Origin: Spirochaetales bacterium
GTDB lineage: Bacteria > Spirochaetota > Spirochaetia > Treponematales > UBA12059
Direction of reading: 5' to 3'
NCBI GenBank assembly: GCA_016928955.1
Contig: JAFGJV010000048.1
Coordinates: 1-64,000, forward strand
Length of the DNA stretch: 64,000 nucleotides
The notes under the pieces were generated by a model. That model did no database searches, had not been told where the DNA came from, and was given only the letters and a program-made list of their open reading frames with translations. This document shows positions 12,705 to 35,170 of the stretch, piece after piece. The stretch's first letter is position 1. The number at the start of each line of letters is the position of its first letter. Made by a program: the position numbers and the translations under genes.

Positions 12705-12763
12705 CGCGCTTGGGGCCCAGCAACGTAAACTGCGGGAATTTCTCTTTTTTGGACGATTTTTAT

Positions 12764-12791: not shown

Positions 12792-12816
12792 CTTCCCTAC
12801 CCCTACTGGTCAGGCG

Positions 12817-12835: not shown

Positions 12836-12862
12836 ACCCGAACCCGTAGCCAGGCTCCGTCC

Positions 12863-14846: not shown

Positions 14847-16301
14847 ATGAAACGCGTCATACGCTTCAGGCTCAACGAACGCCTGTACGAAGAGGAAATC
14901 GGCTCGGAACAGCCCGCCCTGGACTGGATACGCAAGACAGCTGGCCTGACCGGCACCAAGGAAGGCTGCCGGGAAGGCGACTGCGGCGCCTGCCTGGTAC
15001 TGCTCGGCGGCCGCGGCATGGATGGCCGGCCTGAGTGGAAAGCCGTCACGTCTTGCACGCTGGGCATGGGCGAGCTGGACGGACGCCACCTGGTGACCAT
15101 CGAGGGCCTGGCATCCGGCGGCCTCACGCCGGTCATGGAGGCCATGCTTGACGAGGGTGCCAGCCAGTGCGGGTTCTGCTCGCCCGGCTTCATCATAGCC
15201 CTTACGGGTTTCCTGGTGTCCGGCCAGGCCATAGACCCGGTGTCCGCCATGGCGTCCGTGGAAGGCAATTTGTGCCGCTGTACCGGCTACGGCTCCATCC
15301 GCCGTGCCGCGTCCATACTGGCCAGGGACTTTGCGGACCTGCCCGCGGGGCTTGAGCGGCGCCTGCCCGAGCTAGCGCGGCGACACGTTCTCCCGGCCGC
15401 CCTTGCCCAGCTCATGCTTGAGCCGCCCGAACCGGCCGGTTCCCAGGGCGCGGCCTTTGCGGCCATACACCCCGAGGATCCTTCGCTTGTGGACCTGGGC
15501 GGCGGCACGGACTGGTACGTACGCAACCCTGATCCCGACCCCGACCTGGCCCCCCGCTTCTCAGACCAGGCCCCCGGAGCCCGGTCCATACGCGCCGGCG
15601 GCAGCGCCGAGCGCCCCGTGCTTGAGCTTGGCTCAGCGGTGACCGTGGACGACTTCTTTGCCTCGCCGCTGGTCCGGAACCTGGCTCCCGGCATCGAGCG
15701 CTTTGCCGCGGACATGGCCAGTCCCCCGATTAGGGCACGCGCCACCCTGGCGGGCAATATCGTCAACGCGTCGCCCATAGCAGACCTCACATCCATGCTC
15801 CTGGCCCTGGGAGCCCGCCTGGTCCTGGAAGGCGGCCCGGACGGGGAGCGCCTCCTGGAATTGTCGGACTTTTTCCTGGGCTACAAGAAAACGGATATCC
15901 GCGACGGGGAGCGCGTGCGTGGCATCCTGATACCCGCGTCGCCCCTCCGCTTCAACTTTGAGAAGGCGGCAAAACGAGCGCGCCTGGACATAGCCACGGT
16001 CAACACGGCCATGGCCGTGACGCTCGCCCCGGACGGCGGCATAGCGTCGGTCAGGGCGTCGGCCGGCGGCGTGGCTCCGGTGCCCCTGCGCATGGTGGCG
16101 CTGGAAAACGCCATGGTCGGCAAACAGCCGTCCGCCGCCCTCGCGCGGGAAGCCGGCAAGCTGGCCTACGACTGCGGCTCGCCCATAGGTGACGTGCGTG
16201 GATCGGCCGGCTACCGGCGCCGCCTCATGGAGCGGCTTACCTGGGCCCACTTCATCCGGCTGTGGCCGGAGCTTGGCCTGGAAAAGGAGCTCCTGGCATG
16301 A
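14847..16301 (+). CDS. Xanthine dehydrogenase small subunit: two [2Fe-2S] clusters plus FAD domain
   Basis: 484 residues, similar in build to the XdhA subunit of two-subunit bacterial xanthine dehydrogenases (about 460). Cluster one is bound by C41, C46, C49 and C70 (CREGDCGAC), cluster two by C108, C111, C143 and C145 (CGFC and CRCTGY). The FAD-binding domain follows from about 190, with RATLAGNIVNASPIADL. Electrons from the molybdenum subunit would pass through these centres to NAD+. It is the first gene of the locus, with AAGGA before the ATG, and its stop overlaps the next start (ATGA). Confidence 0.9.
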   Translation: MKRVIRFRLNERLYEEEIGSEQPALDWIRKTAGLTGTKEGCREGDCGACLVLLGGRGMDGRPEWKAVTSCTLGMGELDGRHLVTIEGLASGGLTPVMEAMLDEGASQCGFCSPGFIIALTGFLVSGQAIDPVSAMASVEGNLCRCTGYGSIRRAASILARDFADLPAGLERRLPELARRHVLPAALAQLMLEPPEPAGSQGAAFAAIHPEDPSLVDLGGGTDWYVRNPDPDPDLAPRFSDQAPGARSIRAGGSAERPVLELGSAVTVDDFFASPLVRNLAPGIERFAADMASPPIRARATLAGNIVNASPIADLTSMLLALGARLVLEGGPDGERLLELSDFFLGYKKTDIRDGERVRGILIPASPLRFNFEKAAKRARLDIATVNTAMAVTLAPDGGIASVRASAGGVAPVPLRMVALENAMVGKQPSAALAREAGKLAYDCGSPIGDVRGSAGYRRRLMERLTWAHFIRLWPELGLEKELLA

Positions 16302-18496
16302 AGCGCAATCCCGAATCCGTGCTCAACGTTCTTGGCAAGACCCAATACCTGGACGACCTGCCGGAAAACGCCGGCATGCTCCATGCCGCCGTGGTGCTGT
16401 CGCCGTCCGCCCATGGCCGTTTTTCGGGCCTGGACACCGCGGCGGCTCTGGCCATGGATTCCTCCGTACGCGTGGTGGTGGCGGCAGACATACCCGGCCA
16501 GAACGAGCTTGGCACGGCCGTGTTCGACGAGCCGCTCCTGGCCGCCGGCGAATGGCACTACCACGGCCAGGTGCTGGCCCTGGTCCTGGCGTCCAGCCGC
16601 TCGCTGGCCAGGAAAGCGGCGGCCCGCGTGGCCGTCCAGGGGGCCGAACAGCTGCCCGCGGTGACCGACCCGAGGGAGGCGGCCGCCCGGGGAAACATCA
16701 TACTCAGCCCCCGCACCCAGCGTTCCGGCGACGTGGATACCGCCTTCTTGGCCTGCGACGTGGTGGTATCCGGCCGCGTGGAGTCGGGCGGACAGGAACA
16801 CGTGTACCTGGAGACCCAGGGAGCCATAGCCTGGCCGGACGATTCTGGCGGCGTGCGCCTTTTGTCGGGAACCCAGTCCCCGTCCGGTGTGCAGAAGATC
16901 GTGGCCCGCGTCCTTGGCCTGCCCATGAACCTGGTCGAGGTGGAAACCAGGCGCTTGGGCGGCGCGTTCGGCGGCAAGGAGGACCAGGCAACGGGCTGGG
17001 CGGCCCTGGCTGCCCTCGGCGCCGTGGTCAGCGGCCGGCCGGTCAAGATCAACCTCAACCGCCGCGACGACATGGTCGCCACGGGCAAACGCCATCCCTA
17101 TTCGTCGGACTTCCGCATAGGCCTGAAAAAGGACGGAACCATCTTGGCCTTTGAGGCGGATTTCTACCAGAACTCGGGCGCGGCCACAGACCTGTCGCCA
17201 GCCATCATCCCGCGCACCCTCTTCCACGCGGCCGGCGCCTACCACATACCCAATGTCCGCGTGACGGGCACCATGTGCCGCACCAACCTGATTCCCTTCA
17301 CGGCCTTCAGGGGCTTTGGCGGGCCCCAGGGCTTCTTCGTGATAGAGAGCGCCATAGACGCCGCGGCCAGGGCCCTGGGCATTGAGCCCGCCGACATACA
17401 GCGCCGCAACCTGCTGTCCGATGGCGACGAGTTCCACTACGGCATGGTCGCGGAGGATCCACGCGCCAAGGAGACCATGGAGCGCTGCCTGGCCAAGGCA
17501 GACTGGAACAAGCTCAGGGCAGACATACGCGACTTCAACGCGGCTCACGCCGGGCTGAAACGCGGGGCGGCCGCAACGCCCGTGTGCTTTGGCATCAGCT
17601 TTACCAAGATCATGATGAACCAGGGAGGGGCCCTGGTCCATATATACAATGACGGCTCCGTGGGCGTGAGCACGGGCGCCGTCGAGATGGGCCAGGGAGT
17701 TGGCCGCAAAATAGCCCTCGTCGTGGCCGATGCCCTGGGCATACCCGATTCCAAGGTCAAGATAGAGACCACCCGCACGGTCACCGTGGCCAACACCATG
17801 CCCACGGCGGCCAGCACCGGAACGGACATAAACGCCATGGCCGCCAAGATAGCCTGCGACCAGCTCCGCGCCCGCCTGGACGCGCTGGCCAAGGACAGAC
17901 CCGGCCTGGACTTTGTCCAACTGGTAGCCCTGGCCCACGAACAGCGGGTGGACCTGTCGGCCCACGCCTTCTACGCCACGCCCGGCCTCCACTATGACCT
18001 GGCAACCGAGAAGGGCAAACCCTTCCACTACCACGTATACGGATGCGCCGTGGTTACCGCCACGCTGGACGTGCTCAGGGGCACATACCAGTTCGACGAC
18101 GCGTTCATTGTTCACGATATAGCCCACTCCATAGACCCGGTGATAGATCGTGGCCAGGTGGAAGGAGCTTTTGCCCAGGGCCTGGGCTGGGCAGCCCTGG
18201 AGGAACTGGCCTTTGGAGCCGACGGTCGCCTGCTTGCCAACACCCTGTCCACCTACAAACTGCCTGACGCTCATTTCATGCCGCGCATGGACGTGGAATT
18301 CCTCGAGCGGCCCAATCCCGGCACCGTGGCCAACTCCAAGGCCGTGGGCGAGCCGCCCCTGATGTACGGCATAGCCGGCTACTTTGCCGTGCTGGACGCC
18401 CTGAAAGCCGTCCATCCGGACAAACCCGCCTTCTATGACCTTCCCATGACCCCTGAGAAGGCCCTGCGCTTCCTGAGCGAGGAGGACAGCCCATGA
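16298..18496 (+). CDS. Xanthine dehydrogenase large (molybdopterin) subunit
   Basis: 732 residues of the molybdenum hydroxylase fold without Fe-S domains, partner of the preceding gene. Key motifs are GGAFGGKED (about 220-228), TAFRGFGGPQGFF (about 335-347), holding the Arg equivalent to Arg880 of bovine xanthine oxidase, and GEPPLMYG near 685 with the catalytic Glu. The retained Arg supports a purine substrate over an aldehyde. Reaction: hypoxanthine to xanthine and xanthine to urate. ATG 16298 overlaps the upstream stop by 4 bases; the in-frame ATG at 16262 lies inside that gene. Confidence 0.92.
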   Translation: MKRNPESVLNVLGKTQYLDDLPENAGMLHAAVVLSPSAHGRFSGLDTAAALAMDSSVRVVVAADIPGQNELGTAVFDEPLLAAGEWHYHGQVLALVLASSRSLARKAAARVAVQGAEQLPAVTDPREAAARGNIILSPRTQRSGDVDTAFLACDVVVSGRVESGGQEHVYLETQGAIAWPDDSGGVRLLSGTQSPSGVQKIVARVLGLPMNLVEVETRRLGGAFGGKEDQATGWAALAALGAVVSGRPVKINLNRRDDMVATGKRHPYSSDFRIGLKKDGTILAFEADFYQNSGAATDLSPAIIPRTLFHAAGAYHIPNVRVTGTMCRTNLIPFTAFRGFGGPQGFFVIESAIDAAARALGIEPADIQRRNLLSDGDEFHYGMVAEDPRAKETMERCLAKADWNKLRADIRDFNAAHAGLKRGAAATPVCFGISFTKIMMNQGGALVHIYNDGSVGVSTGAVEMGQGVGRKIALVVADALGIPDSKVKIETTRTVTVANTMPTAASTGTDINAMAAKIACDQLRARLDALAKDRPGLDFVQLVALAHEQRVDLSAHAFYATPGLHYDLATEKGKPFHYHVYGCAVVTATLDVLRGTYQFDDAFIVHDIAHSIDPVIDRGQVEGAFAQGLGWAALEELAFGADGRLLANTLSTYKLPDAHFMPRMDVEFLERPNPGTVANSKAVGEPPLMYGIAGYFAVLDALKAVHPDKPAFYDLPMTPEKALRFLSEEDSP

Positions 18497-19938
18497 TCGT
18501 GCGAAACGCCCTGTGCGCTCTGCCCGGCAGGCAGGAACTGGTCAAAACCGACCTTGCCGTATCGGACGACTCCGGCCGAATCCGGGAGCTTGGGCTGGGC
18601 ATCCAGCCAGCGACCGGCGAGGCTGTCCTTGACGCTGAAGGCCTTGAGCTCTACCCCGGCGCCATAGATCCCCACGTCCACTTTGACGAACCCGGCTTTA
18701 CCACCAGGGAAGACTTCTACCATGGCTCCATGGCCGCCGCCCGGGGCGGGGTCACCACGGTCATAGACATGCCGTGCACATCCCAGCCCCCGGTCACCAC
18801 GCTGGACAACCTGAAGGCCAAGCTCGAGGTGATAAGCGAGCGCAGCGTGGTGGACTTTGCCCTGTACGGGGGCGTGTCCGGGAACCGCGTTGAGCAGGCC
18901 CTGGCCATCGATATGGAAGCCCTTGCGCCCTATGTCGTCGGGTTCAAATGCTACTTCGTGTCCGGCATGGATACCTTCACGGCTGTAGACCACTACAGCT
19001 TTGGCCTGGCCGCGCGCAAGGCAGCCGAGCTGGGCAGGCCGCTCCTCCTCCACTCCGAGGACGCTGGCATTGTGGGTCCGGCCACCAAAGCGGTCAAGGA
19101 ACGTCTCCAGGAAGATGACCGGGAGGCTGATTGGGCCGACTATGTGGCGTCCAGGCCAGAATCCGCGGAACTGGTGGCCGCGGCCTCGGCGCTTGCCCTG
19201 GCCCGCGGGCGAGAGGGCACCCTCCACGTGGTCCACGTGGGCACGGCCGAGGCGGCCGAGCTTCTTGCCGCCGGTGGCGCGAGCGCGGAAACCTGCCCCC
19301 ACTATCTGGCTTTTTCCGTGGATGATTTTGCGGACAAAGGCTCGTCCCTGAAAACCGCGCCGCCGGTCAAGGCCAGGGGCCAGGCCGCCCGTCTGTGGAA
19401 ACTGCTGGCGGACGGGGTGATAGCCTTTGTCACCAGCGACCACGCCCCCTGCACCCTGGCCGAGAAGAACACAGGATCGGTGTGGAACGATTACGGCGGC
19501 ATCCCTGGCACGGGCACACTCTTCCCCTACCTCTACTCTGAAGGCTACAAGGCCGGACGCCTTTCCCTGCCGGCCTTCCTCAGGGCCACGGGCGCCGGGG
19601 CGGCCCAACGCTACGGCCTGTCTGGCCGCAAAGGATCGCTGGAGGTCGGCAAGGACGCCGACTTTGTCCTTGTGGATCCCGCCGGCGGCTACGTTATCAG
19701 CGGCGCGGCCCTCCTCAGCAAGGGCACCGTCACGCCTTTTGAAGGCATGAGCCTGCGCGGCTCCATCAAGGCTACCTTCGTGCGCGGCAGGCCCGTGTGG
19801 CTGGCTAATTCCGCGCCGGAGGCATGGCATCTGGCTGGTAGTTTGGCTGACCACGCGCACAAGGATACGCACGCGGCTGACGGCTCTATCGTCGCCGAAC
19901 CTGGATACGGAAACCACATACTCTGGGGGTATAGGTGA
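18493..19938 (+). CDS. hyuA: Cyclic amidohydrolase (HyuA; allantoinase/dihydropyrimidinase family)
   Basis: 481 residues of the urease-like amidohydrolase superfamily. Binuclear metal ligands are visible: DPHVHFDEPG, GFKCYF with the Lys expected to be carbamylated, LLHSED, VVHVGTAEAAE and TSDHAPC. The closest named families are allantoinase and hydantoinase. In the anaerobic urate cluster this gene is thought to open a ring intermediate, and the exact substrate is not settled by sequence. It overlaps xdh (ATGA) and ygfK (GTGA), so it is translationally coupled on both sides. Confidence 0.87.
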   Translation: MIVRNALCALPGRQELVKTDLAVSDDSGRIRELGLGIQPATGEAVLDAEGLELYPGAIDPHVHFDEPGFTTREDFYHGSMAAARGGVTTVIDMPCTSQPPVTTLDNLKAKLEVISERSVVDFALYGGVSGNRVEQALAIDMEALAPYVVGFKCYFVSGMDTFTAVDHYSFGLAARKAAELGRPLLLHSEDAGIVGPATKAVKERLQEDDREADWADYVASRPESAELVAAASALALARGREGTLHVVHVGTAEAAELLAAGGASAETCPHYLAFSVDDFADKGSSLKTAPPVKARGQAARLWKLLADGVIAFVTSDHAPCTLAEKNTGSVWNDYGGIPGTGTLFPYLYSEGYKAGRLSLPAFLRATGAGAAQRYGLSGRKGSLEVGKDADFVLVDPAGGYVISGAALLSKGTVTPFEGMSLRGSIKATFVRGRPVWLANSAPEAWHLAGSLADHAHKDTHAADGSIVAEPGYGNHILWGYR

Positions 19939-22900
19939 GCAAGATCATGAGAGCCCTGCCCATGCGCGAGCTTTTGTCGCGCGTGGCGGGCGAATGGGCT
20001 GCCAAGCGGAGCGCCTTCGACATACCGGAGGAGAGCGTCCGCAGGGTCCTCGCGCTGGAAGCGTCGTCGCCCGGCTTCCAATTCAACGGGCTCCGCGTGG
20101 CCCTGCCCGTGGGCCCGGCTGCCGGTCCGCACACGCAGATAGCGCCCAACCTGGTGGCAGGCTGGCTGGCCGGCTCGCGCGTGTTCGAGCTCAAGACCGT
20201 GCAGGTCAACGACAGCCTGGACATAGACAAGCCGTGCATAGACGCCCTGGACGAGGGCCACAACGTGGAATGGTCCACCGAGCTCAGCCTGGAGGAGGCG
20301 CGCGCGGAGTACCTGCGCGGCTGGATAGCCATACACCTGCTCCGGGCCGCACTGTCGTCGCCCGAGGCAGAGCCGGGTCCCGTGGCCTTCAACATGTCCG
20401 TGGGCTACACCCTGGACGGCATCAAGAGCGAGCGCATGGACGCGTTCATAGAAGGCATGCGCTCCCCCGGTGGCACGGCGACGTGGCGGGAAGCCATGGA
20501 CGACGCCAGAGCCGCGGTGGACGGCCAGCGCTTCAGCGCTGCCTTTGGTCCCGACGGAGCCAAGCGAGCGCGCGATGCCCTGGACGCCATGCCCGACCAG
20601 CCCGTCCACTCGGTCACCCTGTCCACCATGCACGGCTGCCCGCCGGACGAAATCGAGCGCATAGGCGCGTACCTGATCAAGGATAAGGGCTTTGACACCT
20701 TCATCAAGCTCAATCCCACCCTGCTTGGCTACGACGAGGCGCGCTCGATCCTGGACCGTACCGGCTGGGAGCGGGTACGCATCACCCGGCCCAACTTTGA
20801 GCACGACCTTCAGTTTGACGCCGCCCTTGCCCTGATAGCGTCCCTGGAAAAGGCCGCGGCCGACTCGGGACTGCGCTTTGGTATCAAGCTGTCCAATACC
20901 CTGGCCAACGTCAACGACGGAACCCGGCTACCCGGTGGCGAGCGCTACATGTCCGGCCGCGCCCTGTTCCCCCTGACCACCCGCCTGGCAGCCCGCCTGG
21001 CAAGGGCCCTGAGCCGGCCGCCCCTGTTCAGCTACTGCGGCGGCGTGTCTGCCGGCAATGTTGGCGCCTCCCTTGACGCGGGCCTCGGGCCCCTGACCGT
21101 GGCCACGGACATACTGAAGCCCGGCGGCTACCTCCGCCTTGAGCCCATGGCCAGGGAGGCAGTGGCCGCCCTCAAGCGCGGCGTGCCCAAAGCGCCCGAC
21201 CCGGACAAATTGGATGCCCTGGCCGCATCCGCCTTGTCCATGCCCGAGTACCGGGGCGACTACAAAAAAGGACGCGCGCGTATAGCCCGGACCCTGCCCC
21301 TCTCCGACTGCTTTGCCGCGCCCTGCGTGGAAGCCTGTCCGGCCAACCAGAAGGCTCCCGCCTACATCAAAACCCTGGGCAAAGGCGACGCCAAAGGCGC
21401 CTTGGCCATCATCCTTGAGGACAATCCCCTGCCGCGCGTTACCGGTGTCCTGTGCGACCACCAGTGCATGCCGGTCTGCTCCCGGGTCGACTATGAAGGC
21501 CCCGTGAACATACGCGCCATGAAACTGGCCAGCGCCCGCAGGGCTGAATTGGCCGCTCGCCCGGCTCCGCGTGTCAGCGGCAAGGGCAAGGCGGCCGTGG
21601 TCGGCGCCGGGCCCGCCGGCCTGGCATGCGCCCATTTCCTGGCCCTGGACGGCTACCCGGTCACCGTGTTCGACACGGCGCCCGGCCCCGGCGGCGTGCC
21701 GGCCAACGTGATACCGGCCTTCCGCATCGACCCGTCGGACATAGCCGCCGACGTGGACAGGATCCAGGCCCTGGGCGCTGAGTTCCGCTTCGGCTGGGAC
21801 GGCGGCATCGACATGGATGCCTTGAAACAGGACGGCTACACAAGTTTCGTGGTGGCCACCGGGGCGCCCGTGCCCCGTGCCCTGGACCTCAAGGGCGCTG
21901 GCATACCCGTGGTCGATGCGCTTGAGTTCCTGGAAGCCGCCCATGTTTCCGCCCGTGGAGGCAAGCCGGGTCCCTGGGACGGCGTCCGCGCCGTTGCCGT
22001 GGTCGGCGGCGGCAACACGGCCATGGACGCCGCACGGGTGGCAGCCCGCCTGCCCGGCTCGCCGTCAGTCAGTATCCTGTACCGCCGCACCCTGGCGGAG
22101 ATGCCGGCCGACCGCGAGGAGTTCGAGGCGGCCCTGGCGGACGGCGTCAAATATCGCGAACTGTCCCTGCCGGAAACTGCCGAGGCGGCCGCGGGAGGGG
22201 ACTTGCCCACGCTGACCGTGCGCGAGATGGAACTCGGGGCGCCGGACTCGTCTGGCCGGCGAGCTCCCGTTCAGAGCGACAGGACCACGCGCATGCCCTG
22301 CGAGCTCCTGGTGGCCGCGGTTGGCGAAAGCCCCGATTCGCGGCTCCTGTCGTCGCTGGGCGTGGCCGTGGAATCGTCCGGCCGACCCGTCGTCGACCAG
22401 CGCACCATGCTGAGCGGGGCGCAGGGCGTCTTTGTTGTGGGCGACGCTCGCCGGGGCCCGGCCAGCATCATAGCGGCTGAGGCGGACGGCAAGAAGGCTG
22501 CGCACGCCATCCTCCGTATAGCGGGCATCGAACCGTCCGGCATGGACCTGCGGCCCGGTCCCATCGACCGGGAAGCCCTGTCCCGCCGAGGAGAGATCAT
22601 AGCGCCGGCGGCATCGGACGGCGAGCTGGACGACGAAGGCGTCAGCCGGGAAGCGTCGCGCTGCCTGTCCTGCGGTTCGGCCTGCCTGCGCTGCGTGGAA
22701 GTCTGCCCGAACCGGGCCAATCTGGCCCTGCCCGTTGACGTGCACGCTGGCGGCCCCTTTACGCAGGCCCTGCAGATCCTCCATATCGACGAACTCTGCA
22801 ACGAGTGCGGCAACTGCGGCTTCTTCTGCCCGTACGACGGCGAGCCCTTTACGGGCAAGCCGACGCTGTTCCGCGACGAAACGACTCTGCGCGCCAGCGG

Positions 22901-23102
22901 CAACGCCGGGTTTGCCTTCCTTGGCGCCGGACCCGAACCGGAGCTGGCGCTCAGATCGGAACCCGGCCGCCGCGACGACGTGGTCGTCCTTCCCTATTCC
23001 GCGTGGAGCCGCACGGCCGACGCAGAGAACGCAGGCCTCATAGCCATGGCCCGTACCGTCCTGGCCGAACACGACTACCTGCTGCCCGGAGGCCGCCCAT
23101 GA
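19935..23102 (+). CDS. ygfK: YgfK-type Fe-S flavoprotein oxidoreductase
   Basis: 1055 residues (E. coli YgfK is about 1030), often annotated as a putative selenate reductase subunit. The N-terminal third is dihydroorotate-dehydrogenase-like (VGPAAGPHTQIAPNLVAG). A glutamate-synthase-beta-like unit follows: CVEACPANQKAP and CDHQCMPVCSR Fe-S ligands, FAD motif VVGAGPAGLACAH, NAD(P)H motif VVGGGNTAMDAARVAAR and a second FAD motif VFVVGDARRGPA. The C-terminus has ferredoxin-like CLSCGSACLRCVEVCPN and CNECGNCGFFCPYDG. In the anaerobic purine route it is a candidate for reductive attack on the urate ring. The start is GTG overlapping hyuA. Confidence 0.9.
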   Translation: MSKIMRALPMRELLSRVAGEWAAKRSAFDIPEESVRRVLALEASSPGFQFNGLRVALPVGPAAGPHTQIAPNLVAGWLAGSRVFELKTVQVNDSLDIDKPCIDALDEGHNVEWSTELSLEEARAEYLRGWIAIHLLRAALSSPEAEPGPVAFNMSVGYTLDGIKSERMDAFIEGMRSPGGTATWREAMDDARAAVDGQRFSAAFGPDGAKRARDALDAMPDQPVHSVTLSTMHGCPPDEIERIGAYLIKDKGFDTFIKLNPTLLGYDEARSILDRTGWERVRITRPNFEHDLQFDAALALIASLEKAAADSGLRFGIKLSNTLANVNDGTRLPGGERYMSGRALFPLTTRLAARLARALSRPPLFSYCGGVSAGNVGASLDAGLGPLTVATDILKPGGYLRLEPMAREAVAALKRGVPKAPDPDKLDALAASALSMPEYRGDYKKGRARIARTLPLSDCFAAPCVEACPANQKAPAYIKTLGKGDAKGALAIILEDNPLPRVTGVLCDHQCMPVCSRVDYEGPVNIRAMKLASARRAELAARPAPRVSGKGKAAVVGAGPAGLACAHFLALDGYPVTVFDTAPGPGGVPANVIPAFRIDPSDIAADVDRIQALGAEFRFGWDGGIDMDALKQDGYTSFVVATGAPVPRALDLKGAGIPVVDALEFLEAAHVSARGGKPGPWDGVRAVAVVGGGNTAMDAARVAARLPGSPSVSILYRRTLAEMPADREEFEAALADGVKYRELSLPETAEAAAGGDLPTLTVREMELGAPDSSGRRAPVQSDRTTRMPCELLVAAVGESPDSRLLSSLGVAVESSGRPVVDQRTMLSGAQGVFVVGDARRGPASIIAAEADGKKAAHAILRIAGIEPSGMDLRPGPIDREALSRRGEIIAPAASDGELDDEGVSREASRCLSCGSACLRCVEVCPNRANLALPVDVHAGGPFTQALQILHIDELCNECGNCGFFCPYDGEPFTGKPTLFRDETTLRASGNAGFAFLGAGPEPELALRSEPGRRDDVVVLPYSAWSRTADAENAGLIAMARTVLAEHDYLLPGGRP

Positions 23103-25638: not shown

Positions 25639-25644
25639 AAGCGC

Positions 25645-25671
25645 ACCGCGGAGACTCGGCCACGCAGAGGG
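25645..25671 (+). repeat. Decayed copy of an interspersed palindromic repeat
   Basis: This stretch reads like one arm of the repeat at 33744-33851 (CCRCGGAGACWCGG followed by ACGCAGAGG). It occupies the break between ygeY and the next gene. Confidence 0.4.
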
Positions 25672-25702
25672 TGTGCGGAAAAGACGGGGTGGGACAAAGC
25701 TC

Positions 25703-26878: not shown

Positions 26879-26886
26879 GATGCATA

Positions 26887-26921
26887 GCGCGGAGGCACGG
26901 AGCGCCACGTCTCCGAGCCGC
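26887..26921 (+). repeat. Second decayed copy of the interspersed repeat
   Basis: GCGGAGGCACGGAG and a partly complementary CTCCGAGCCGC follow the stop of the preceding gene. The pattern matches the left arm of the element at 33744-33851. Confidence 0.35.
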
Positions 26922-26945
26922 AGCGGTTGAGATTTCCATAGGAAC

Positions 26946-27187
26946 CCTCTAAAAAACATTAGTTTTAGAGGCTTACCGTGGCATACTTCGCGTTTTCGAA
27001 CGAAAACGCAGGGAACCTTCAAGAACCACCGGTTTTAGAGGTTCTCTATAGAGGCTCTTTCAAAAGTCGGACGAGTTTTGAAAGAGCTCCATATTGAGAC
27101 GTGATTTGCGTAGCGGTTGCGAAACATGCAAACGACCGCGAGCAATCGCAAAGCCAATTTCAGAAGTAACAGACTTTTGGAATTGGC
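26946..27187 (+). repeat. AT-rich array of six stem-loops within the purine locus
   Basis: This fills most of the 338-base gap 26879-27216. Stems: 26946-26954 with 26963-26971 (9 bp perfect), 26990-26998 with 27001-27009 (9 bp), 27022-27027 with 27040-27045, 27054-27065 with 27076-27087 (12 bp perfect), 27105-27110 with 27147-27152 enclosing GCGGT/ACCGC, and 27153-27159 with 27181-27187. The first and third units share GTTTTAGAGG and AACC-rich starts, so they look like degenerate direct repeats. Composition differs sharply from the flanking genes. No U-tract follows any stem. Confidence 0.8.
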
Positions 27188-27216
27188 TCTATACGCTTAG
27201 CCTAAGGAGCATAGAC

Positions 27217-28674
27217 ATGATCGATTTACGGATTGACGAGAAAGCCCGCAGGAAGAACATCGAGCGCTGCAAGCAGAACAACATCATACTGCCCACCTAC
27301 GAGCAGATGCGCGACCCGTCCAAGGTGCCCCAGTCCGTCAAGGACGAGCTCAAGAACATAGGACTCTGGGACGTCCACAGCCGCAACCTGTTCCGCGTCA
27401 CCTGGAAAAACGAACCAACGGAAAAAGGCGGCCAATTCGGCGGGGTCAACTACTTTGAGCTTCCGCGCCAGCTCACCGGCACCAAGGCTCGGATAGCCGG
27501 CGTGGTGGGCAAATGGTTCCCCACGGGCGCCCACAAGGTTGGCGCCACCTACTCCTGCCTGGTGTCCGAACTGATTACGGGCCGCTTTGACCCCACCACC
27601 AAAAAAGCCGTATGGCCGAGCACCGGCAACTATTGCCGCGGCGGCGCGTACGTATCCCGGCTCCTCACCTGCCCGTCTGTGGCCATCCTGCCGGCAGAGA
27701 TGTCCAAGGAGCGCTTCGAGTGGCTCAAGACCATGGCCGACGAGGTGATAGCCACCCCCGGCTGCGAGTCCAACGTGTGGGAAATCTTCGTCAAATGCAT
27801 TGAAATAGAGTCCAACCAGCCCGACGCTGTCATCTTTAACCAGTTCGACCAGCTGCCCAACCACCTGTGGCACTACACCGTCACCGGTCCGGCCCTGGAA
27901 GAAGTGTACAAGGCCATGGCGACCAAGGGCGAGCATCTGGCCCTGACCATGTACTCGTCGGGCTCGGCGGGCACCCTGGGCGCGGGCAGTTACCTCAAGG
28001 AACGGTACAACGGCCACCGCGTCGGCGCCGGCGAAGCCCTGCAGTGCCCCACCATCCTGGAAAACGGCTTTGGCGGCCACCGCATAGAGGGCATAGGCGA
28101 CAAGCACATCCCCTGGATCCACAACCTTCGCGACACCGACCACGCCGTGGCCGTTGACGACGAGATAACCATCCGCCTGCTCCGCCTGTTCAACGAACCC
28201 GCCGGCCGGGCTGTGCTAGTTGAAGCCGGCGTCCCCCAGGAGACGGTGGACCAGCTCGACCTCCTGGGCATATCCGGCATTGGCAATCTGGTGGCCACCA
28301 TCAAGGCGGCCAAGTTCTACGAGCTCAGGGACGACGACATTGCCCTGACCGTGTTCACCGATTCACTCCAGCTGTACGGATCGCGGCTCAGGGAGCTGAC
28401 CGCCGAGCGCGGCCCCTACACCCAGCGCCAGGCCGACAAGGACCTTGACCTGCTCCAGAACCTGTCCGTGGACCACGTGCTGGACATGGGCCATATTGAG
28501 CGCCGCCGCGTCCACCAGCTCAAGTACTACACCTGGATCGAGCAGATGGGCAAAAGCCTGGACGAGCTCAACGAGCAGTGGGACAATTACCGCCAGTACT
28601 GGGGCAAACTCCATGACCAGGTCGACACCATCGACCAGATGATCAAGGACTTCAATGCGGAGGTTCTCAAGTGA
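27217..28674 (+). CDS. PLP-dependent fold-type II enzyme of unknown substrate
   Basis: 485 residues of a family usually annotated only as a PLP-dependent or cysteine-synthase-like enzyme. FPTGAHKVGATYSCLV holds the likely Schiff-base Lys, WPSTGNYCRGGAYVSRLL resembles the phosphate and substrate loop, SSGSAGTLGAGSYL the glycine-rich cofactor loop, and ENGFGGHRIEGIGDKHIPW is a long conserved block. The C-terminal 90 residues are helical. The start is fixed by AAGGAG at 27202-27207. It overlaps the 8-oxoguanine deaminase start (GTGA). It is a second candidate for the ammonia-lyase step; the function is unproven. Confidence 0.75.
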   Translation: MIDLRIDEKARRKNIERCKQNNIILPTYEQMRDPSKVPQSVKDELKNIGLWDVHSRNLFRVTWKNEPTEKGGQFGGVNYFELPRQLTGTKARIAGVVGKWFPTGAHKVGATYSCLVSELITGRFDPTTKKAVWPSTGNYCRGGAYVSRLLTCPSVAILPAEMSKERFEWLKTMADEVIATPGCESNVWEIFVKCIEIESNQPDAVIFNQFDQLPNHLWHYTVTGPALEEVYKAMATKGEHLALTMYSSGSAGTLGAGSYLKERYNGHRVGAGEALQCPTILENGFGGHRIEGIGDKHIPWIHNLRDTDHAVAVDDEITIRLLRLFNEPAGRAVLVEAGVPQETVDQLDLLGISGIGNLVATIKAAKFYELRDDDIALTVFTDSLQLYGSRLRELTAERGPYTQRQADKDLDLLQNLSVDHVLDMGHIERRRVHQLKYYTWIEQMGKSLDELNEQWDNYRQYWGKLHDQVDTIDQMIKDFNAEVLK

Positions 28675-30071
28675 TAGTGCTCAAGGACTGCTTCAGGGTG
28701 GTCCGGCCCCGCTACGGGGCGGGCAAGGCCGCCGGCTCCAGCACCGACGACCTTGCCGGTGTTGACGTACTCCTGGACGGAAACCGCATCGTCCGCATAG
28801 CCAAGGGCATAGACGCCCCGGCCGGCTGCGAGGTTGTGGACGCGTCCAGGCACGTGGTCATGCCGGGCCTTGTGAACACGCACCACCATTTCTACCAGAC
28901 GCTTACGCGCAACGTGCCGGCCGTCCAGGACGCCAAGCTGTTCAAATGGCTGGTGTACCTGTATGAGGTATGGAAGGGCGTGGACGAGGAGGCGGTGTAC
29001 TGGTCCAGCATGCTCGCCCTGGCCGAGTTGGCCAAGACGGGCTGCACCCTGTCCACCGACCACCACTATCTCTATCCCCAGGGCTTCAAGGACGACCTGC
29101 CCGGCCTCCAGTTCAAGGCCGCAGCGGACATCGGTCTCCGCTTTGCCCCCACGCGCGGTTCCATGTCGCGTTCCAAAAAGGACGGCGGCCTGCCCCCGGA
29201 CAGCGTTGTCCAGGACGAGGACACTATCCTGGCCCAGAGCGAGGCTGCCCTGCGCGCATACCACGACCCGGCGCCGGACGCCATGCGCAAGCTGGCCCTT
29301 GCGCCGTGTTCGCCCTTCTCCGTGTCCGAGCAGAGCATGAAGGACGCCGCCGCCCTGGCCCGCCGCTACGGCGCCCGGCTCCACACGCACCTGGCCGAAA
29401 CCAAGGACGAGGACGAGTTCTGCGTCAAGATGTACGGCCGCCGTCCGCTCAAGGTCATGGAGGACTGCGACTTTATCGGGCCGGACGTGTGGTACGCCCA
29501 CGGTATACATTTCAACGACGACGAGCTCAAACTGCTGGCTGAAACCAAGACCGGCGTTGCCCACTGCCCGTCCAGCAACATGCGGCTGGGTTCCGGCATA
29601 TGCCGCGTGCGCGAAATGCTGGACCTCGGCATACCCGTGGGCCTGGCCGTTGACGGCTCGGCCTCCAACGACGCGTCGGATATGCTGGGCGAGGCCAGGC
29701 AGGCCCTGCTCCTTCAGCGGGTGCGCTACGGCTCGGCAGGCATCACCGCCCGCGAGGTCCTGGGCCTGGCCACCCAGGGCGGAGCCCGCATCCTGGGCTA
29801 CGATGAGGCCGGCCGCATGGAGGAAGGCGCCCTGGCCGACCTTGCCCTGTTTGACGTCATGAAACTGGAGTACGCGGGGGCCCTGTCCGACCCGGCTGCC
29901 GCCCTGCTCTTTTCGGGGTACAATCACGGCGTGGATCACCTGATTGTCAATGGTCGTTTTGTCGTCCGGAATTCACGCCTTGTGGGCGCGGATGAGGAGC
30001 GCATACGCGACGAGGCCAATCGCTGCGCCAAGCGCCTCCTCCAGAAAGCGGGGGTACAGGCTGAATGGTAA
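28671..30071 (+). CDS. 8-oxoguanine deaminase
   Basis: 466 residues. Sequence landmarks of the 8-oxoguanine deaminase/hydroxyatrazine hydrolase branch are PGLVNTHHHFYQTLTRNVP (HxH metal site), STDHHYLYPQG, RLHTHLAETKDEDEF, WYAHGIHFNDDE, VAHCPSSNMRLGSG and LAVDGSASNDASDML. The reaction is 8-oxoguanine to urate plus ammonia, which would feed the same locus. Distinguishing it from guanine deaminase rests on these motifs and length. The GTG start overlaps the preceding stop; its own stop overlaps the ygfM-like start by 7 bases. Confidence 0.87.
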   Translation: MIVLKDCFRVVRPRYGAGKAAGSSTDDLAGVDVLLDGNRIVRIAKGIDAPAGCEVVDASRHVVMPGLVNTHHHFYQTLTRNVPAVQDAKLFKWLVYLYEVWKGVDEEAVYWSSMLALAELAKTGCTLSTDHHYLYPQGFKDDLPGLQFKAAADIGLRFAPTRGSMSRSKKDGGLPPDSVVQDEDTILAQSEAALRAYHDPAPDAMRKLALAPCSPFSVSEQSMKDAAALARRYGARLHTHLAETKDEDEFCVKMYGRRPLKVMEDCDFIGPDVWYAHGIHFNDDELKLLAETKTGVAHCPSSNMRLGSGICRVREMLDLGIPVGLAVDGSASNDASDMLGEARQALLLQRVRYGSAGITAREVLGLATQGGARILGYDEAGRMEEGALADLALFDVMKLEYAGALSDPAAALLFSGYNHGVDHLIVNGRFVVRNSRLVGADEERIRDEANRCAKRLLQKAGVQAEW

Positions 30072-30874
30072 ACGAATATGTTAGACCGGCTTCCCTTGAG
30101 GAAGCCCTGGAGCTCATGGAGGACGACGGCAGCGTGGCCTCCGCTGGCGGCACCTTCCTCTTGACCGGCTACGAGGTCGGCCGCGGACGGGACATGGACT
30201 GCATGATAGACGTGCTCCAGCTCCTGCCCTCAGGCGTCACCCGGAGCGGCAACGAGCTGTCCATAGGCTCGGGCACCACCTTCCAGGCCCTCATAGACTC
30301 CAAGGACGCGCCTGCGTGCCTGAAGGCGGCCGCCCTGTCCATGGCCAACCGCAACACCCGGAACCGGGCGACCGTGGGCGGCAACCTGGGGGCAAACAAG
30401 GCATGCGCAAGCCTTCCGCCCATACTCCTGGCCCTCGGCGCCAAGGTCGAGTTCAAAGCCCGGGCGTCCGCTCCCCTGACCCTGGACCTGGACAAGTGGC
30501 TGGCCGCCCCTGAAGGCCTTGTGCTTCGCGTGATCGTGCCCATGGCTCCAGGTACCCTGGCGGCTGCGGGCAGGGCCAGCCGCACGGCCTGCGACCTGGC
30601 CACGGCCACCGTGGGAGTGTCCTACCGACTTGAGAACGGCGTCATCCGGGGGCTCCGCGTCGCCTTGGGCGGCTTTAGCCCCCACGCCCGCCTGTTCCCG
30701 GACCTGGCCGCGCTGTTCGAGGGCACGGCCCTGCCGCCCAAGGCCGACATCGAACGCGTCGCCAAACCCCTGCTTACGGCCATATCCGACCACCGGGGAA
30801 GCGCCGACTACAAGAAACAGCGAGGCGCGGTCATCCTGGCGGACGCCATGCACGCGGCGGAGGCCCTGTCATGA
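30065..30874 (+). CDS. ygfM: YgfM-like FAD-binding subunit of a molybdenum hydroxylase
   Basis: 269 residues (E. coli YgfM is about 259). It is the stand-alone FAD subunit of the xanthine dehydrogenase family: VNEYVRPASLEEALELM opens it, and NRNTRNRATVGGNLGANKACASLPPILLALGAKVE is the typical flavin-binding stretch. No Fe-S cysteines are present; these sit on XdhD, whose start overlaps by 4 bases. The two likely form an electron-transferring complex distinct from the XDH pair at the head of the locus. Confidence 0.87.
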   Translation: MVNEYVRPASLEEALELMEDDGSVASAGGTFLLTGYEVGRGRDMDCMIDVLQLLPSGVTRSGNELSIGSGTTFQALIDSKDAPACLKAAALSMANRNTRNRATVGGNLGANKACASLPPILLALGAKVEFKARASAPLTLDLDKWLAAPEGLVLRVIVPMAPGTLAAAGRASRTACDLATATVGVSYRLENGVIRGLRVALGGFSPHARLFPDLAALFEGTALPPKADIERVAKPLLTAISDHRGSADYKKQRGAVILADAMHAAEALS

Positions 30875-33738
30875 AAACGACCTTTACCCTGAACGAGAAA
30901 CCGGTAAGCTGGAATTCGGAACCCGGACAGACCCTCCTGGACGCCCTCCGCGCCCACGGCATCGTGTCCGTACGCAACGGCTGCGACGGCGAGGGTTCAT
31001 GCGGCCTGTGCGCCGTCCTCATGGACGGAAAACAGGTCAATTCGTGCCAGATCCTCCTCCCCCAGGTGGAAGGCCGTAACATATACACGGTCGACTACTT
31101 TGGCAAGAACCGGTCCTTGTCCATAGTCCAGCGGGCCCTCATAGACGCCGCCTGCGTCCAGTGCGGCTACTGCACGCCCGCGGTGGTCCTTGCCCTTCAC
31201 GAGCTGCTTGCCCGCTCCCCCGACCCCAGCGAACCCGAGGTCAAGGACGCCCTGTCCGGCACCCTGTGCCGCTGCACGGGCTACGAGCAGTTCTTCAACG
31301 CGGCCCGTATAGCCAGCAAGCGCCTACGCGACCCGTCCTACTCGGAAGCCGCGTCCGAGCAGTTCCGTCCCGACCTCCGCCACGTGGGCAAGGACAGGGA
31401 CAAGGTCGACGCGGTGGCCCTGGCCAGGGGCGAGCGAGCCTTTGTGGAGGACCGCGTGGCCGCCGACGCCTGTCACCTGTTCGTGCTCGGCAGTCCCCAC
31501 GCCCACGCGTACATAAAGAGCGTGGACATCAGCAAGGCCGAAGCCATGCCCGGCGTGGTCAAGGTGCTGTGCAAGGACAACTGCCCGGACCTGGTGTACA
31601 CCACGGCCGGCCAGGGTTTCCCGGAACCCAGCCCCCACGACCAGCGCATGTTCCCGCGCAAGGCCCGTTTTGTCGGCGACCGCGTGGCCGCCGTCCTGGC
31701 CGAGACGCCCGAACAGGCCAAGGCCGCCCTGTCGGCCATCACCGTTGAGTACGATGTCCTGGAGCCCGTCCTGTCCATAGCCCAGGCCAAGGCCAAAGGC
31801 GCCCCGATAGTCCACCACGGCGACGTTTCGTACGTGGTCGGCGACCCGCCAGAGGGCAGTTCCGTCAAGGGTGACGGCCGTGACGACCCCATCCTGTACC
31901 AGTTCCCCCTGCACGCCGACCCGCACCGCAACCTGGCCGCCAGCGTTTCCGACGGCATAGGCGACATGGACAAGGGTTTTGCCGAGGCGGACGTGGTCAT
32001 AGAGCGCACGTACGTGGGCAACCGCGTGCAGTGCACGCCCATGGAACCCCATGTGGTATACGCCCGCATGGACGGCGGACGCCTGATACTCCACGCGTCC
32101 ACCCAGGTGCCCTGGCACGTCCGGCGCATCGTGTCGCGAGCCATAGGCGTGAGCGAGAACAAGGTCCGCGTGGTCAAGGAACGCGTGGGCGGCGGTTTCG
32201 GCGCCAAGCAGGACATCGTCGTGGAGGACCTGGCCGGCTACCTGGCCTGGACCACCGGACGCGACGTGTTCTACCGCTACAACAGGGAAGAGGAATTCGC
32301 CGCCAGCCGCACCAGGCACGGCATGGAGATCACGGTCAAGCTGGGAGCAAAAAAAGACGGCACCCTGACCGCCGTGCTCATGCAGCTGGACGCCGACACC
32401 GGCCCCTACGGCCAGCACTGCCTGACCGTGCCCATGAACGCCATATCCAAGAGCCTGCCCCTGGTGCTGTGCGACAACGCCAGGTTTGAGGTCAGAAGCT
32501 GGTATACCAACCTGTCGCCCGCCGGCGCCTATCAGGGTTACGGCGCGCCCAAAGGCTCCTTTGCCCTCCAGACGGCCTTGGCCGAGCTGGCCGCCGAGCT
32601 TGGCATGGACCAGCTGGACCTGATAGAGAAGAACCGCGTCCGCTCGGGCAGCCGCATCGAGATACTGCGCTCCCTGGGCGAGGGCAGGCCCGGCCAGCCG
32701 GTTACCCTGGGCGAATGCGGCCTGGGCGAGATGATCAGGCGCGGCAGGGTCAACCTCGAGTGGGACAAGCCCAAGCCAAAGGCCAGCGCCGATGGCTGGA
32801 AGGTCGGGCGCGGCGGCGTCATCATACAGCAGGGCTCGGGCCTTCCCGGCCTGGACGCTGCCAACGCCGAGCTCAGGCTCCTGTCGGACGGTACCCTCCT
32901 CATGCTGTCGGGCGGCGCCGACCTGGGTACGGGCCTTGATACGGTCACGGCCAAGGCTGCCGCCGAGATACTCGGCCTGGACATGGAAGACGTGAGCGTC
33001 GTATCGGGCGACACGGACACCACGCCCTTTGACAAGGGCGCGTACGCCAGCTCGGGCACCTACTTCTCAGGCAACGCCGCCGTCAAGGCGGCCCTGGACC
33101 TCAAGGCCAAGTGCATTTCCGTGGCCGCGGGCATCCTGGGCGAACCGGAGAGCGACCTTGCCATCGTCCCGCGCGGCATCATACGCGGCAAGCGCGGCGA
33201 GATCACCCTGGCCAAGCTGGCCCACCTGTCCATCCAGGGCGAGGGCCACCACGAACTGGTCGGCTTTGGCAACTTCAAGACCGAGCACGCCGCCTTCCCC
33301 TATGGCGCCCATTTTGCCCAGGTTGAGGTGAACGAGCGCTCGGGAGAGGTACGCATCACCCGTTACCATGCGTACCAGGACTGCGGCACGCCCATCAACC
33401 CCGCCCTGGCCATGGGCCAGATATACGGCGGCGTCATGAAAGCCGTCGGCCACTCCCTCTACGAGGAACTCCTGTTCGACAACAAGGGCCGGCCCCTGAA
33501 CACCAATTTCCTGGACTACAAGATACCGAGCGTGTTCGAGGTGCCTGACGACTTCCACGTGGAGCTGGTGCCCGTGGCCGACGAGGAAGGCCCCTTTGGC
33601 GGCAAGAGCGTTTCCGAGATTTCGCTCAACGGATCGGCCCCGGCCATAGCCATAGCCATCCACGACGCCGTTGGCGTATGGATGCGCGAATGGCCCTTCA
33701 CCCCCGAGCGCATCCTCAAGGCAATGGGGAAGTTATAA
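30871..33738 (+). CDS. xdhD: XdhD-type molybdenum hydroxylase with fused [2Fe-2S] domain
   Basis: 955 residues, essentially the E. coli XdhD length (956). Residues 1-160 bind two [2Fe-2S] clusters through C38, C44, C47, C59 and C98, C101, C133, C135; the molybdopterin domain follows from about 170, with VGGGFGAKQD and a final GGKSVSEISLNGSAPA. The substrate-loop segment AYQGYGAPKGSF replaces the XO-type FRGFGGPQ, so its substrate probably differs from that of the other Mo enzyme. The family is linked to selenium-dependent purine hydroxylation, with selenium as a labile ligand; no in-frame TGA is needed. A 157-base gap follows. Confidence 0.9.
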   Translation: MKTTFTLNEKPVSWNSEPGQTLLDALRAHGIVSVRNGCDGEGSCGLCAVLMDGKQVNSCQILLPQVEGRNIYTVDYFGKNRSLSIVQRALIDAACVQCGYCTPAVVLALHELLARSPDPSEPEVKDALSGTLCRCTGYEQFFNAARIASKRLRDPSYSEAASEQFRPDLRHVGKDRDKVDAVALARGERAFVEDRVAADACHLFVLGSPHAHAYIKSVDISKAEAMPGVVKVLCKDNCPDLVYTTAGQGFPEPSPHDQRMFPRKARFVGDRVAAVLAETPEQAKAALSAITVEYDVLEPVLSIAQAKAKGAPIVHHGDVSYVVGDPPEGSSVKGDGRDDPILYQFPLHADPHRNLAASVSDGIGDMDKGFAEADVVIERTYVGNRVQCTPMEPHVVYARMDGGRLILHASTQVPWHVRRIVSRAIGVSENKVRVVKERVGGGFGAKQDIVVEDLAGYLAWTTGRDVFYRYNREEEFAASRTRHGMEITVKLGAKKDGTLTAVLMQLDADTGPYGQHCLTVPMNAISKSLPLVLCDNARFEVRSWYTNLSPAGAYQGYGAPKGSFALQTALAELAAELGMDQLDLIEKNRVRSGSRIEILRSLGEGRPGQPVTLGECGLGEMIRRGRVNLEWDKPKPKASADGWKVGRGGVIIQQGSGLPGLDAANAELRLLSDGTLLMLSGGADLGTGLDTVTAKAAAEILGLDMEDVSVVSGDTDTTPFDKGAYASSGTYFSGNAAVKAALDLKAKCISVAAGILGEPESDLAIVPRGIIRGKRGEITLAKLAHLSIQGEGHHELVGFGNFKTEHAAFPYGAHFAQVEVNERSGEVRITRYHAYQDCGTPINPALAMGQIYGGVMKAVGHSLYEELLFDNKGRPLNTNFLDYKIPSVFEVPDDFHVELVPVADEEGPFGGKSVSEISLNGSAPAIAIAIHDAVGVWMREWPFTPERILKAMGKL

Positions 33739-33743
33739 ATGCA

Positions 33744-33851
33744 GCCACGGAGCCACGGAGCTAGGGGAAAAACAAGAGATGTGAAGGATTCACGGCGCAC
33801 GCCTTTTCCCTCGCTTCTTGTCTCTTCCCCTGCGTCTCGGTGTCTCTGTGG
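33744..33851. repeat. Interspersed palindromic repeat element between xdhD and ygeW
   Basis: The left arm (about 33744-33779, CCACGGAGCCACGGAG then GGGGAAAAACAAGA) and right arm (33816-33851) are imperfect reverse complements over about 36 bases, around an interior of about 36 bases. Partial copies lie at 25645-25671 and 26887-26921. The build resembles small non-autonomous palindromic elements of the CCACAGAGACACNGAG type known from many genomes. Confidence 0.65.
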
Positions 33852-33895
33852 TTTTTTGTGAAGTTGTTTTCGCTGATTACTCATGGAGGTTACTG

Positions 33896-35092
33896 ATGAG
33901 CGTTAATGAGATTAAAGCCCTGATCGACAGGCTGGCCGCCAAGAAGATCGGGATGTACCACAAGGACTTTCTCCTGACCTGGGAGAAGACCCGCGACGAG
34001 ATAGACGCCACCTTCCTGGTGGCCGACATCCTGCGCGGCATGCGCGACGCCAACGTGAGCCCGCGCGTGTGGCACTCCGGCATAGCCGTGTCCAACTTCC
34101 GCGACAATTCCACCCGCACTCGTTTTTCCTACGCCAGCGCCTGCGACCTTCTGGGCCTGTACGTCCAGGACCTGGACGAGGGCAAGAGCCAGATAGCCCA
34201 CGGCGAGACCGTGCGCGAGACGGCCGCCATGATCAGCTTCCTCACCGAGGCCATAGGCATACGAGACGACATGTACCTGGGAGAGGGCGACCGCTACCAG
34301 CGCGAGGTCGGCTCAGCCCTGGACGCGGCCGTGGCTTCCGGCGTGCTCCCGGACCGGCCCACCGTGGTCAACCTCCAGAGCGACATCGACCACCCTACCC
34401 AGGCCATGGCCGACTTCCTCCACCTGGCCCACCACTTCGGCGGCATCGGCAAGCTCAAGGGCAAGAAAATCGCCATGACCTGGGCGTACTCTCCGTCCTA
34501 CGGCAAGCCCCTGTCCGTGCCCCAGGGCATCATAGGCCTGGCCAGCCGCTTTGGCATGGACATCACCCTGGCCCACCCCGAAGGCTACGACCTCATACCG
34601 GACGTGGTTGCCCTGTCCAAGAAACAGGCGGCGGAGTCCGGCGGCTCCTTCACGCACGTCAATTCCATGGACGATGCCTTCAAGGGCGCGGACATCGTCT
34701 ATCCCAAGAGCTGGGCACCCTTTGACGTCATGCAAAAGCGCGTGCCCCTGCTCAAGGCCGGCGACCAGGCTGGGCTCAAGGACCTGGAAAAAACCTGCCT
34801 TGCCAACAACGCGCGCTTCCAGGACTGGGAGTGCACGGAAGAAAAAATGAAACTGACCAAGGACGGCAAGGCCCTGTACATGCACTGTCTGCCCGCCGAC
34901 ATCACCGGCGTGTCCTGCAAGGCTGGAGAGGTGGCCGCCAGCGTCTTTGAGCGCTACCGCGACGACACCTACCGCGAGGCCGGTTTCAAGCCGTACATCA
35001 TAGCCGCCATGATTCTGCTCGGAAAGCGCAAGGACCCGGCGGCTACCCTGCGCGCCCTCCTGGAAAAGGGCCACCAGCGCGAGACCCTATAG
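33896..35092 (+). CDS. ygeW: YgeW-type carbamoyltransferase
   Basis: 398 residues (E. coli YgeW about 396), a knotted-fold transcarbamylase. DNSTRTRFSYASACDLLG has the STRTR carbamoyl-phosphate loop, DHPTQAMADFLHL the second active-site block, and MHCLPADI the HCLP motif. In purine degradation it would run in the phosphorolytic direction, releasing carbamoyl phosphate from a ureido intermediate. No carbamate kinase is in the window to harvest the ATP. The start has GGAGG at 33885-33889. It is the last gene of the locus. Confidence 0.9.
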   Translation: MSVNEIKALIDRLAAKKIGMYHKDFLLTWEKTRDEIDATFLVADILRGMRDANVSPRVWHSGIAVSNFRDNSTRTRFSYASACDLLGLYVQDLDEGKSQIAHGETVRETAAMISFLTEAIGIRDDMYLGEGDRYQREVGSALDAAVASGVLPDRPTVVNLQSDIDHPTQAMADFLHLAHHFGGIGKLKGKKIAMTWAYSPSYGKPLSVPQGIIGLASRFGMDITLAHPEGYDLIPDVVALSKKQAAESGGSFTHVNSMDDAFKGADIVYPKSWAPFDVMQKRVPLLKAGDQAGLKDLEKTCLANNARFQDWECTEEKMKLTKDGKALYMHCLPADITGVSCKAGEVAASVFERYRDDTYREAGFKPYIIAAMILLGKRKDPAATLRALLEKGHQRETL

Positions 35093-35130: not shown

Positions 35131-35170
35131 CCCCTTCCTTCCGCTCTGTCCGTGCCGCCACAACAAGCGC

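Follow-up and report, generated by a model that had tools for sequence, protein, structure and literature searches.

We analysed a 64,000-nucleotide stretch of DNA from a Spirochaetales bacterium (G000:C6:1-64000; here "the window" means this whole stretch), taken from genome G000 of 2.87 Mb in 59 contigs, which is 99.48% complete. Our subject is a run of 12 open genes, all on the + strand, spanning positions 14847-35092. These genes are homologues of the reductive urate pathway, and we think it rather probable that the operon ferments adenine or hypoxanthine, with a pair of pyridoxal phosphate (PLP) enzymes, named plp401 and plp526, likely replacing YgeX, the final enzyme in Escherichia coli. 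Judged from sequence, this would be a known pathway in a changed form, whose testable novelty lies in the PLP pair. The genes are as follows.

14847..16301, + strand: xdhS, xanthine dehydrogenase (XDH) small subunit, iron-sulphur and FAD (best family TIGR02963, 286 bits, below the cut-off of 467)
16298..18496, + strand: xdhL, XDH molybdenum (Mo) subunit, internal start (best family TIGR02965, 738 bits, below the cut-off of 849.5)
18493..19938, + strand: allB, allantoinase-type cyclic amidohydrolase at the HyuA position (TIGR03178, 333 bits, below the cut-off of 358)
19935..23102, + strand: YgfK, predicted yanthine reductase (TIGR03315, 1008 bits, cut-off 835.3)
23099..24421, + strand: SsnA, predicted ring-opening aminohydrolase (TIGR03314, 509 bits, cut-off 455.5)
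24418..25638, + strand: YgeY, predicted ureido hydrolase (TIGR03526, 492 bits, cut-off 321.5)
25703..26878, + strand: plp401, threonine-synthase-like PLP enzyme of 391 amino acids (PF00291)
27217..28674, + strand: plp526, PLP enzyme of 485 amino acids resembling cysteine synthase and cystathionine beta-synthase (PF00291; the longest open reading frame, of 526 amino acids, begins at 27094)
28671..30071, + strand: oxoGD, 8-oxoguanine deaminase, 8-oxoguanine to urate (NF006055, 602 bits, cut-off 532)
30065..30874, + strand: YgfM-like FAD subunit (best family TIGR03312, 87 bits, below the cut-off of 241.5)
30871..33738, + strand: XdhD, predicted urate reductase (TIGR03313, 1167 bits, cut-off 1101.9)
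33896..35092, + strand: YgeW, knotted carbamoyltransferase, internal start (TIGR03316, 656 bits, cut-off 500)

The family calls compare profile scores with the curated NCBIfam cut-offs, and the names plp401 and plp526 are taken from the longest open reading frames. Internal ATG starts are used for xdhL (16298), ygeY (24418), plp401 (25703), plp526 (27217) and ygeW (33896). With these starts 8 of the 11 junctions overlap, seven by 4 bases and one by 7, and intergenic gaps are seen at ygeY-plp401 (64 bases), plp401-plp526 (338 bases) and xdhD-ygeW (157 bases). An earlier note, made from the letters of the window, had described a same-strand set of genes here that mostly overlap by 4-7 bases, and the open frames, family scores and junctions bear this out.

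The reductive urate pathway was rebuilt in 2025 from E. coli and Clostridioides difficile enzymes, with the reactions shown in vitro (Li et al., PMC12507026). According to this work, XdhD-YgfM reduces urate to 2,8-dioxopurine (yanthine), which YgfK then dearomatises, SsnA and HyuA act as the ring-opening enzymes, the ureido groups are taken off by YgeW and YgeY, and YgeX, a diaminopropionate ammonia-lyase, carries out the final step from diaminopropionate to pyruvate. SsnA is used there as the marker enzyme of the pathway, and its presence in Spirochaetota is already reported in that paper. In the window, SsnA, XdhD, YgfK, YgeW and YgeY all score over their cut-offs, with identities to the E. 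coli K-12 proteins of 65% for YgeW, 51% for YgeY, 50% for SsnA, 50% for XdhD and 43% for YgfK; the YgfM-like subunit, which stays below its cut-off, is 30% identical to E. coli YgfM. Glu606 of E. coli XdhD has been proposed to orient urate (PMC12507026); in a rough four-sequence alignment, this position is Glu in the XdhD of the window and a gap in the operon's other XDH. A carbamate kinase is found outside the cluster (G000:C57:4029-4958, 380 bits, cut-off 358), and yqeB, described as a selenium-molybdenum accessory gene in PMC2276186, scores over cut-off at G000:C1. As far as homology can tell, the assignment of the gene set to a reductive pathway free of urate oxidase is sound, and the anaerobic urate-type set of the earlier note agrees with both the published pathway and the E. 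coli K-12 locus. The same note had called the locus complete. The reductive markers are indeed present; what does not stand is the full canonical set, since YgeX is not found in G000 and the hydantoinase is of the allantoinase type.

The missing YgeX and the two PLP enzymes are the centre of our reading. The YgeX family TIGR01747 (cut-off 274 bits) has no match at E<=1e-3 anywhere in G000, both PLP genes included, and it does not appear among the 25 top-scoring of the 42 families matched by plp401, the lowest of these 25 having 41 bits. Likewise, E. coli YgeX has no BLAST match at E<1e-3 to either PLP enzyme. In a set of 58 genomes, made up of relatives and G000 itself, the YgeX family scores over cut-off in 2. 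These two genes (L064 on G004:C151 and L065 on G018:C56) lie on contigs other than that of ssnA, and may provide a diaminopropionate lyase for another route. The pair also falls short of its other kin: plp401 reaches the cut-off of none of the six listed threonine synthase models, with for example 207 against 303 bits for PRK08197 and 153 against 167 bits for thrC, while plp526 reaches 72 bits against a cysK cut-off of 351 and extends at its C-terminus by about 70-85 residues past the part that aligns with its best matches. Structure searches with a model of either enzyme give no diaminopropionate ammonia-lyase among the 50 matches listed, which does not speak for a different fold. By these scores both enzymes are non-canonical as YgeX. 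A protein search with plp526, in which the 8000 candidates sharing most words were scored, gave names and no gene context for the best 120, and a literature search returned no title describing such a PLP pair in urate clusters, a result that does not allow the pair to be called unpublished.

Below we report the distribution of the pair in 247 Spirochaetota genomes, with thresholds of E<=1e-75 for SsnA, E<=1e-60 for plp526 and E<=1e-50 for YgeX, whose matches are all over cut-off. Overall, SsnA is identified in 42 genomes, plp526 in 19 and YgeX in 29, and 18 of the 19 genomes with plp526 also have SsnA. By Fisher's test plp526 is strongly associated with SsnA, whether genomes (p 6e-15) or genera (p 7e-15) are counted. 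The 42 genomes with SsnA divide into 12 with plp526 alone, 20 with YgeX alone, 6 with both and 4 with neither, and the exclusion between plp526 and YgeX has p 0.0014 by genome. The linkage to ssnA points the same way: of the 20 genomes without plp526, 19 have ygeX on the ssnA contig at a distance of at most about 4 kb, against 1 of 6 genomes with plp526 (p 0.0005), and 13 of 18 genomes have plp526 and ssnA on one contig, no more than about 14 kb apart. We therefore regard the pair as likely to do the YgeX step in the operon.

The earlier note had also proposed a search of spirochaete genomes for the same gene order, taking disruption elsewhere in the lineage as evidence against it. In 33 loci taken from related genomes (one genome has two), we counted adjacency by tblastn with the window proteins, provided that the contig ran on for more than 400 bases. 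We find a conserved order and no general disruption: xdhS-xdhL is kept in 18/18 loci, xdhL-allB in 20/20, allB-ygfK in 21/22, ygfK-ssnA in 27/27, ssnA-ygeY in 30/31, ygeY-plp401 in 30/30, plp401-plp526 in 23/25, plp526-oxoGD in 23/23, oxoGD-ygfM in 18/23, ygfM-xdhD in 18/18 and xdhD-ygeW in 14/15. Three of the exceptions are due to one divergent locus, L053 in G023. Four of the five exceptions at oxoGD-ygfM belong to genus g17 (L036, L037, L038 and L039), in whose operons 8-oxoguanine deaminase is followed by YgeW and XdhD-YgfM is not in the operon. Where complete, plp526 is 68-84% identical among the relatives. Another locus of G023, L063 (G023:C86; positions 9430-11061 of the locus), has a 37%-identical relative of plp526 adjoining XDH-type Mo and FAD subunits. 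The 338-base gap between the two PLP genes in the window holds AT-rich inverted repeats at 26935-27087, with 16-base arms, 94% complementary, at 27054-27087 and further arms of 19 and 20 bases around CCTCTAAAA/TTTTAGAGG, and in L027, L036, L038 and L039 the junction is about 1 to 2.4 kb long. Rfam at gathering scores and a transfer RNA scan gave no matches within the 64-kb window. Downstream, an open reading frame for a dCache-PAS-GGDEF diguanylate cyclase (35152-37170, + strand) starts 59 bases past ygeW.

Upstream of the operon are two further purine genes, as the earlier note had correctly observed:

11267..12553, - strand: xanthine/uracil-type permease of 428 amino acids (PF00860, 168 bits), divergent from the operon
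12701..14602, + strand: adenine deaminase, adenine to hypoxanthine (TIGR01178, 570 bits, cut-off 472.5)

The adenine deaminase ends 244 bases upstream of the operon, with the permease beyond it in the opposite direction, and copies of the permease, 81-83% identical, lie near cluster genes in the relative loci L041 and L042. By element balance, hypoxanthine + 6 H2O gives pyruvate + 2 CO2 + 4 NH3 and adenine + 7 H2O gives pyruvate + 2 CO2 + 5 NH3, both with no added electrons, while 2 H have to be supplied for xanthine and 4 H for urate. Because hypoxanthine is exactly at the redox level of pyruvate, CO2 and NH3, the oxidative and reductive halves would balance inside one operon. The upstream genes and this balance make adenine or hypoxanthine a likelier natural substrate than urate, and the oxidative XDH could be the source of the four electrons for urate reduction.

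The proposed route, in which adenine or hypoxanthine would be fermented via urate to pyruvate, ammonia and CO2, may be drawn as follows. Adenine deaminase would convert adenine to hypoxanthine, and XDH would oxidise hypoxanthine to urate with a yield of two NADH, while a second, direct supply of urate would come from 8-oxoguanine through its deaminase. XdhD-YgfM would then reduce urate to yanthine and YgfK would dearomatise it, with two NAD(P)H consumed. SsnA and the allantoinase-type hydrolase are predicted to open the two rings, YgeW to release carbamoyl phosphate, from which the carbamate kinase elsewhere in the genome would make ATP, and YgeY to free diaminopropionate. Finally, the PLP pair would strip the amino groups of diaminopropionate, equal to the YgeX step in E. 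coli. A stronger version of this proposal would make the pair a second, so far unrecognised terminal module: a two-enzyme PLP system, spread over many phyla, that deaminates diaminopropionate in place of YgeX, perhaps by beta-replacement to serine or cysteine, and closes a redox-neutral adenine fermentation within one operon. This version we put forward tentatively, as somewhat doubtful.

For the cyclic amidohydrolase the earlier label HyuA has to be given up. Besides its best family being allantoinase, the protein scores 197 bits against the D-hydantoinase family TIGR02033 (cut-off 393) and is 27% identical to E. coli HyuA, and TIGR02033 has no match at E<=1e-60 in the G000 genome. We considered an L-series stereochemical pathway, linking an allantoinase-type hydrolase to the PLP pair, and dropped it as the leading idea, since the Halanaerobiales locus L085 pairs the PLP genes with a D-hydantoinase of 436 bits, over the cut-off.

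It is also of interest to follow the pair beyond the phylum. An alignment scan of genome records with plp526 found 575 relatives, of which the best 80 were kept, so that the sample leans to kin of the window protein; the counts below refer to these best 80. By title, they include Spirochaetota, Chloroflexota, Bacteroidota, Acidobacteriota, Bipolaricaulota, Halanaerobiales, Clostridia, Proteobacteria and others, and the gut records among them are from goat (L122 and L141). The plp401 gene is in the same locus in 56, YgeX in 1, and urate-type markers, counting an XDH Mo subunit or a carbamoyltransferase, in 37. Two Bacteroidetes loci, L105 and L151, have ssnA, ygfK, ygeY, a carbamoyltransferase, XDH genes, the pair and 8-oxoguanine deaminase with no YgeX in the locus, and this is the spirochaete pattern repeated in another phylum. 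Elsewhere, L075 from a betaproteobacterial metagenome-assembled genome and L076 from Rhodocyclaceae have the pair and no urate-type marker in the locus; in L076 (6568-12828), the pair sits between a gene of the allantoate amidohydrolase family and an L-serine ammonia-lyase. The clustering of neighbouring open reading frames was partly spoiled by antisense frames in GC-rich loci, and served only to choose proteins for annotation. The neighbour in L076 suggested a route by which diaminopropionate would reach pyruvate via serine; we rejected it, since the L-serine ammonia-lyase family does not track the operon: among the 58 genomes it matches at E<=1e-25 in 31 and over cut-off in 11, and G000 has only a sub-cut-off match (167 bits against 243). 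Because many phyla have the pair, some of them next to urate-type genes and others away from them, its role here is a matter of inference; the two enzymes appear to form a unit used more widely, and among urate genes their substrate would most simply be diaminopropionate.

Several observations weigh against the proposed replacement of YgeX. One genome, G069, has plp526 without SsnA. By genus, the exclusion between the pair and YgeX (4 genera with both, 11 with the pair only, 3 with YgeX only and 1 with neither) has p 0.12, non-significant because 18 of the 20 genomes with YgeX alone come from genus g57; when g57 is left out, the contrast in linkage shrinks to 1/2 against 1/6 (p 0.46). In G077, ssnA, plp526 and a YgeX-family gene are on one contig, and in L090 the pair is within about 6 kb of a ygeW-ygeY-ygeX set. 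The four g17 genomes have no XdhD orthologue, their best match being 39-42% identical and on another contig, and yqeB is found in only 14 of the 58 genomes and not in several operon carriers. Among the best 80 plp526 loci, only 23 have ssnA, ygfK or ygeY, and 43 have no urate-type marker at the thresholds used; the pair is therefore used outside uricolysis in those loci or placed away from the cluster. At the residue level, in an alignment of low identity, both PLP enzymes have Thr where YgeX has D120 (the Asp before the Gly-Asn motif), and Asn stands opposite D189. We take both Asp residues to be catalytic in YgeX, and the pair thus probably uses other catalytic residues.

These points lead to the rival explanations. 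The operon might encode the ordinary known pathway, with a diverged diaminopropionate ammonia-lyase as one of the PLP enzymes (more probably plp401, which resembles threonine synthase) and a mere passenger as the other. Threonine-synthase-type enzymes can catalyse beta-elimination, and the plp401 orthologues of some relatives match the YgeX model weakly (19-23 bits). Both PLP enzymes belong to PF00291, the Pfam family of YgeX (PMC12507026). The lack of any TIGR01747 or E. coli YgeX match in G000 at the E-values given above argues the other way, and a passenger would hardly be kept at the identity and adjacency to plp401 reported here for plp526, so that we hold this explanation to be unlikely. 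We give about the same low credence to the idea that the pair serves another amino-acid route, for example synthesis of serine, cysteine or threonine or breakdown of another beta-substituted alanine, and is only co-regulated with purines, diaminopropionate being excreted or handled by an unrecognised enzyme. The 43 markerless loci, the setting of the pair in L076 and the closeness of plp401 to threonine synthase all suit it. Indeed, plp401 could be the housekeeping threonine synthase, as a search of G000 with plp401, made without a threonine synthase profile, gave itself and one weak match. On the other side, plp401 does not reach the cut-off of any of the six listed threonine synthase models, plp526 occurs in Spirochaetota almost only with SsnA, and related genomes without the operon show weak matches only (plp526 <=56 bits, plp401 <=129 bits).

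Far less probable than either is an allantoin-type route, with the allantoinase-like gene acting on allantoin and YgeW and YgeY on its products. The best family of the cyclic amidohydrolase is its point in favour. However, the XdhD, YgfK and SsnA of the reductive route are all present in conserved order (urate oxidase was not searched for in the genome), and YgeW is a knotted carbamoyltransferase close to that of E. coli. We thus keep to the fermentation of adenine or hypoxanthine with the PLP pair at the YgeX step.

If so, the operon would be a full-length version, in a spirochaete family, of a pathway so far treated as a trait of gut bacteria. Its last step would be done by a different enzyme system, and with adenine or hypoxanthine as substrate it might carry its own electron source. 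A commentary (PMC12990295) asks whether the pathway arose as an ancient innovation or as an adaptation to the gut, and which electron donor serves the clostridial first enzyme. Should the pair work as predicted, purine degradation would gain two new enzymes, and surveys that equate PF00291 with YgeX would need correcting, as they would not distinguish the pair.

Compared with known systems, the E. coli K-12 cluster (ygeW-ygeX-ygeY-hyuA-yqeA and ygfK-ssnA-ygfM-xdhD) has the same predicted chemistry as the spirochaete operon. The latter, however, is a single same-strand run of 12 genes, lacks YgeX and has two extra PLP genes, carries an allantoinase-type protein where E. coli has HyuA, keeps its carbamate kinase elsewhere in the genome, and includes 8-oxoguanine deaminase and a two-subunit XDH. 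As for the PLP enzymes themselves, they have PF00291 in common with YgeX, whereas its two Asp residues are not conserved in them, and they stay below the family cut-offs of cysteine synthase and cystathionine beta-synthase (plp526) and of threonine synthase (plp401). A parallel is the C. difficile cluster variant with UacX and UacY (PMC12507026), in which steps of the pathway have likewise passed to non-orthologous enzymes: in C. difficile these are the dearomatising step and the ureido cleavage, in the spirochaete it would be the terminal lyase.

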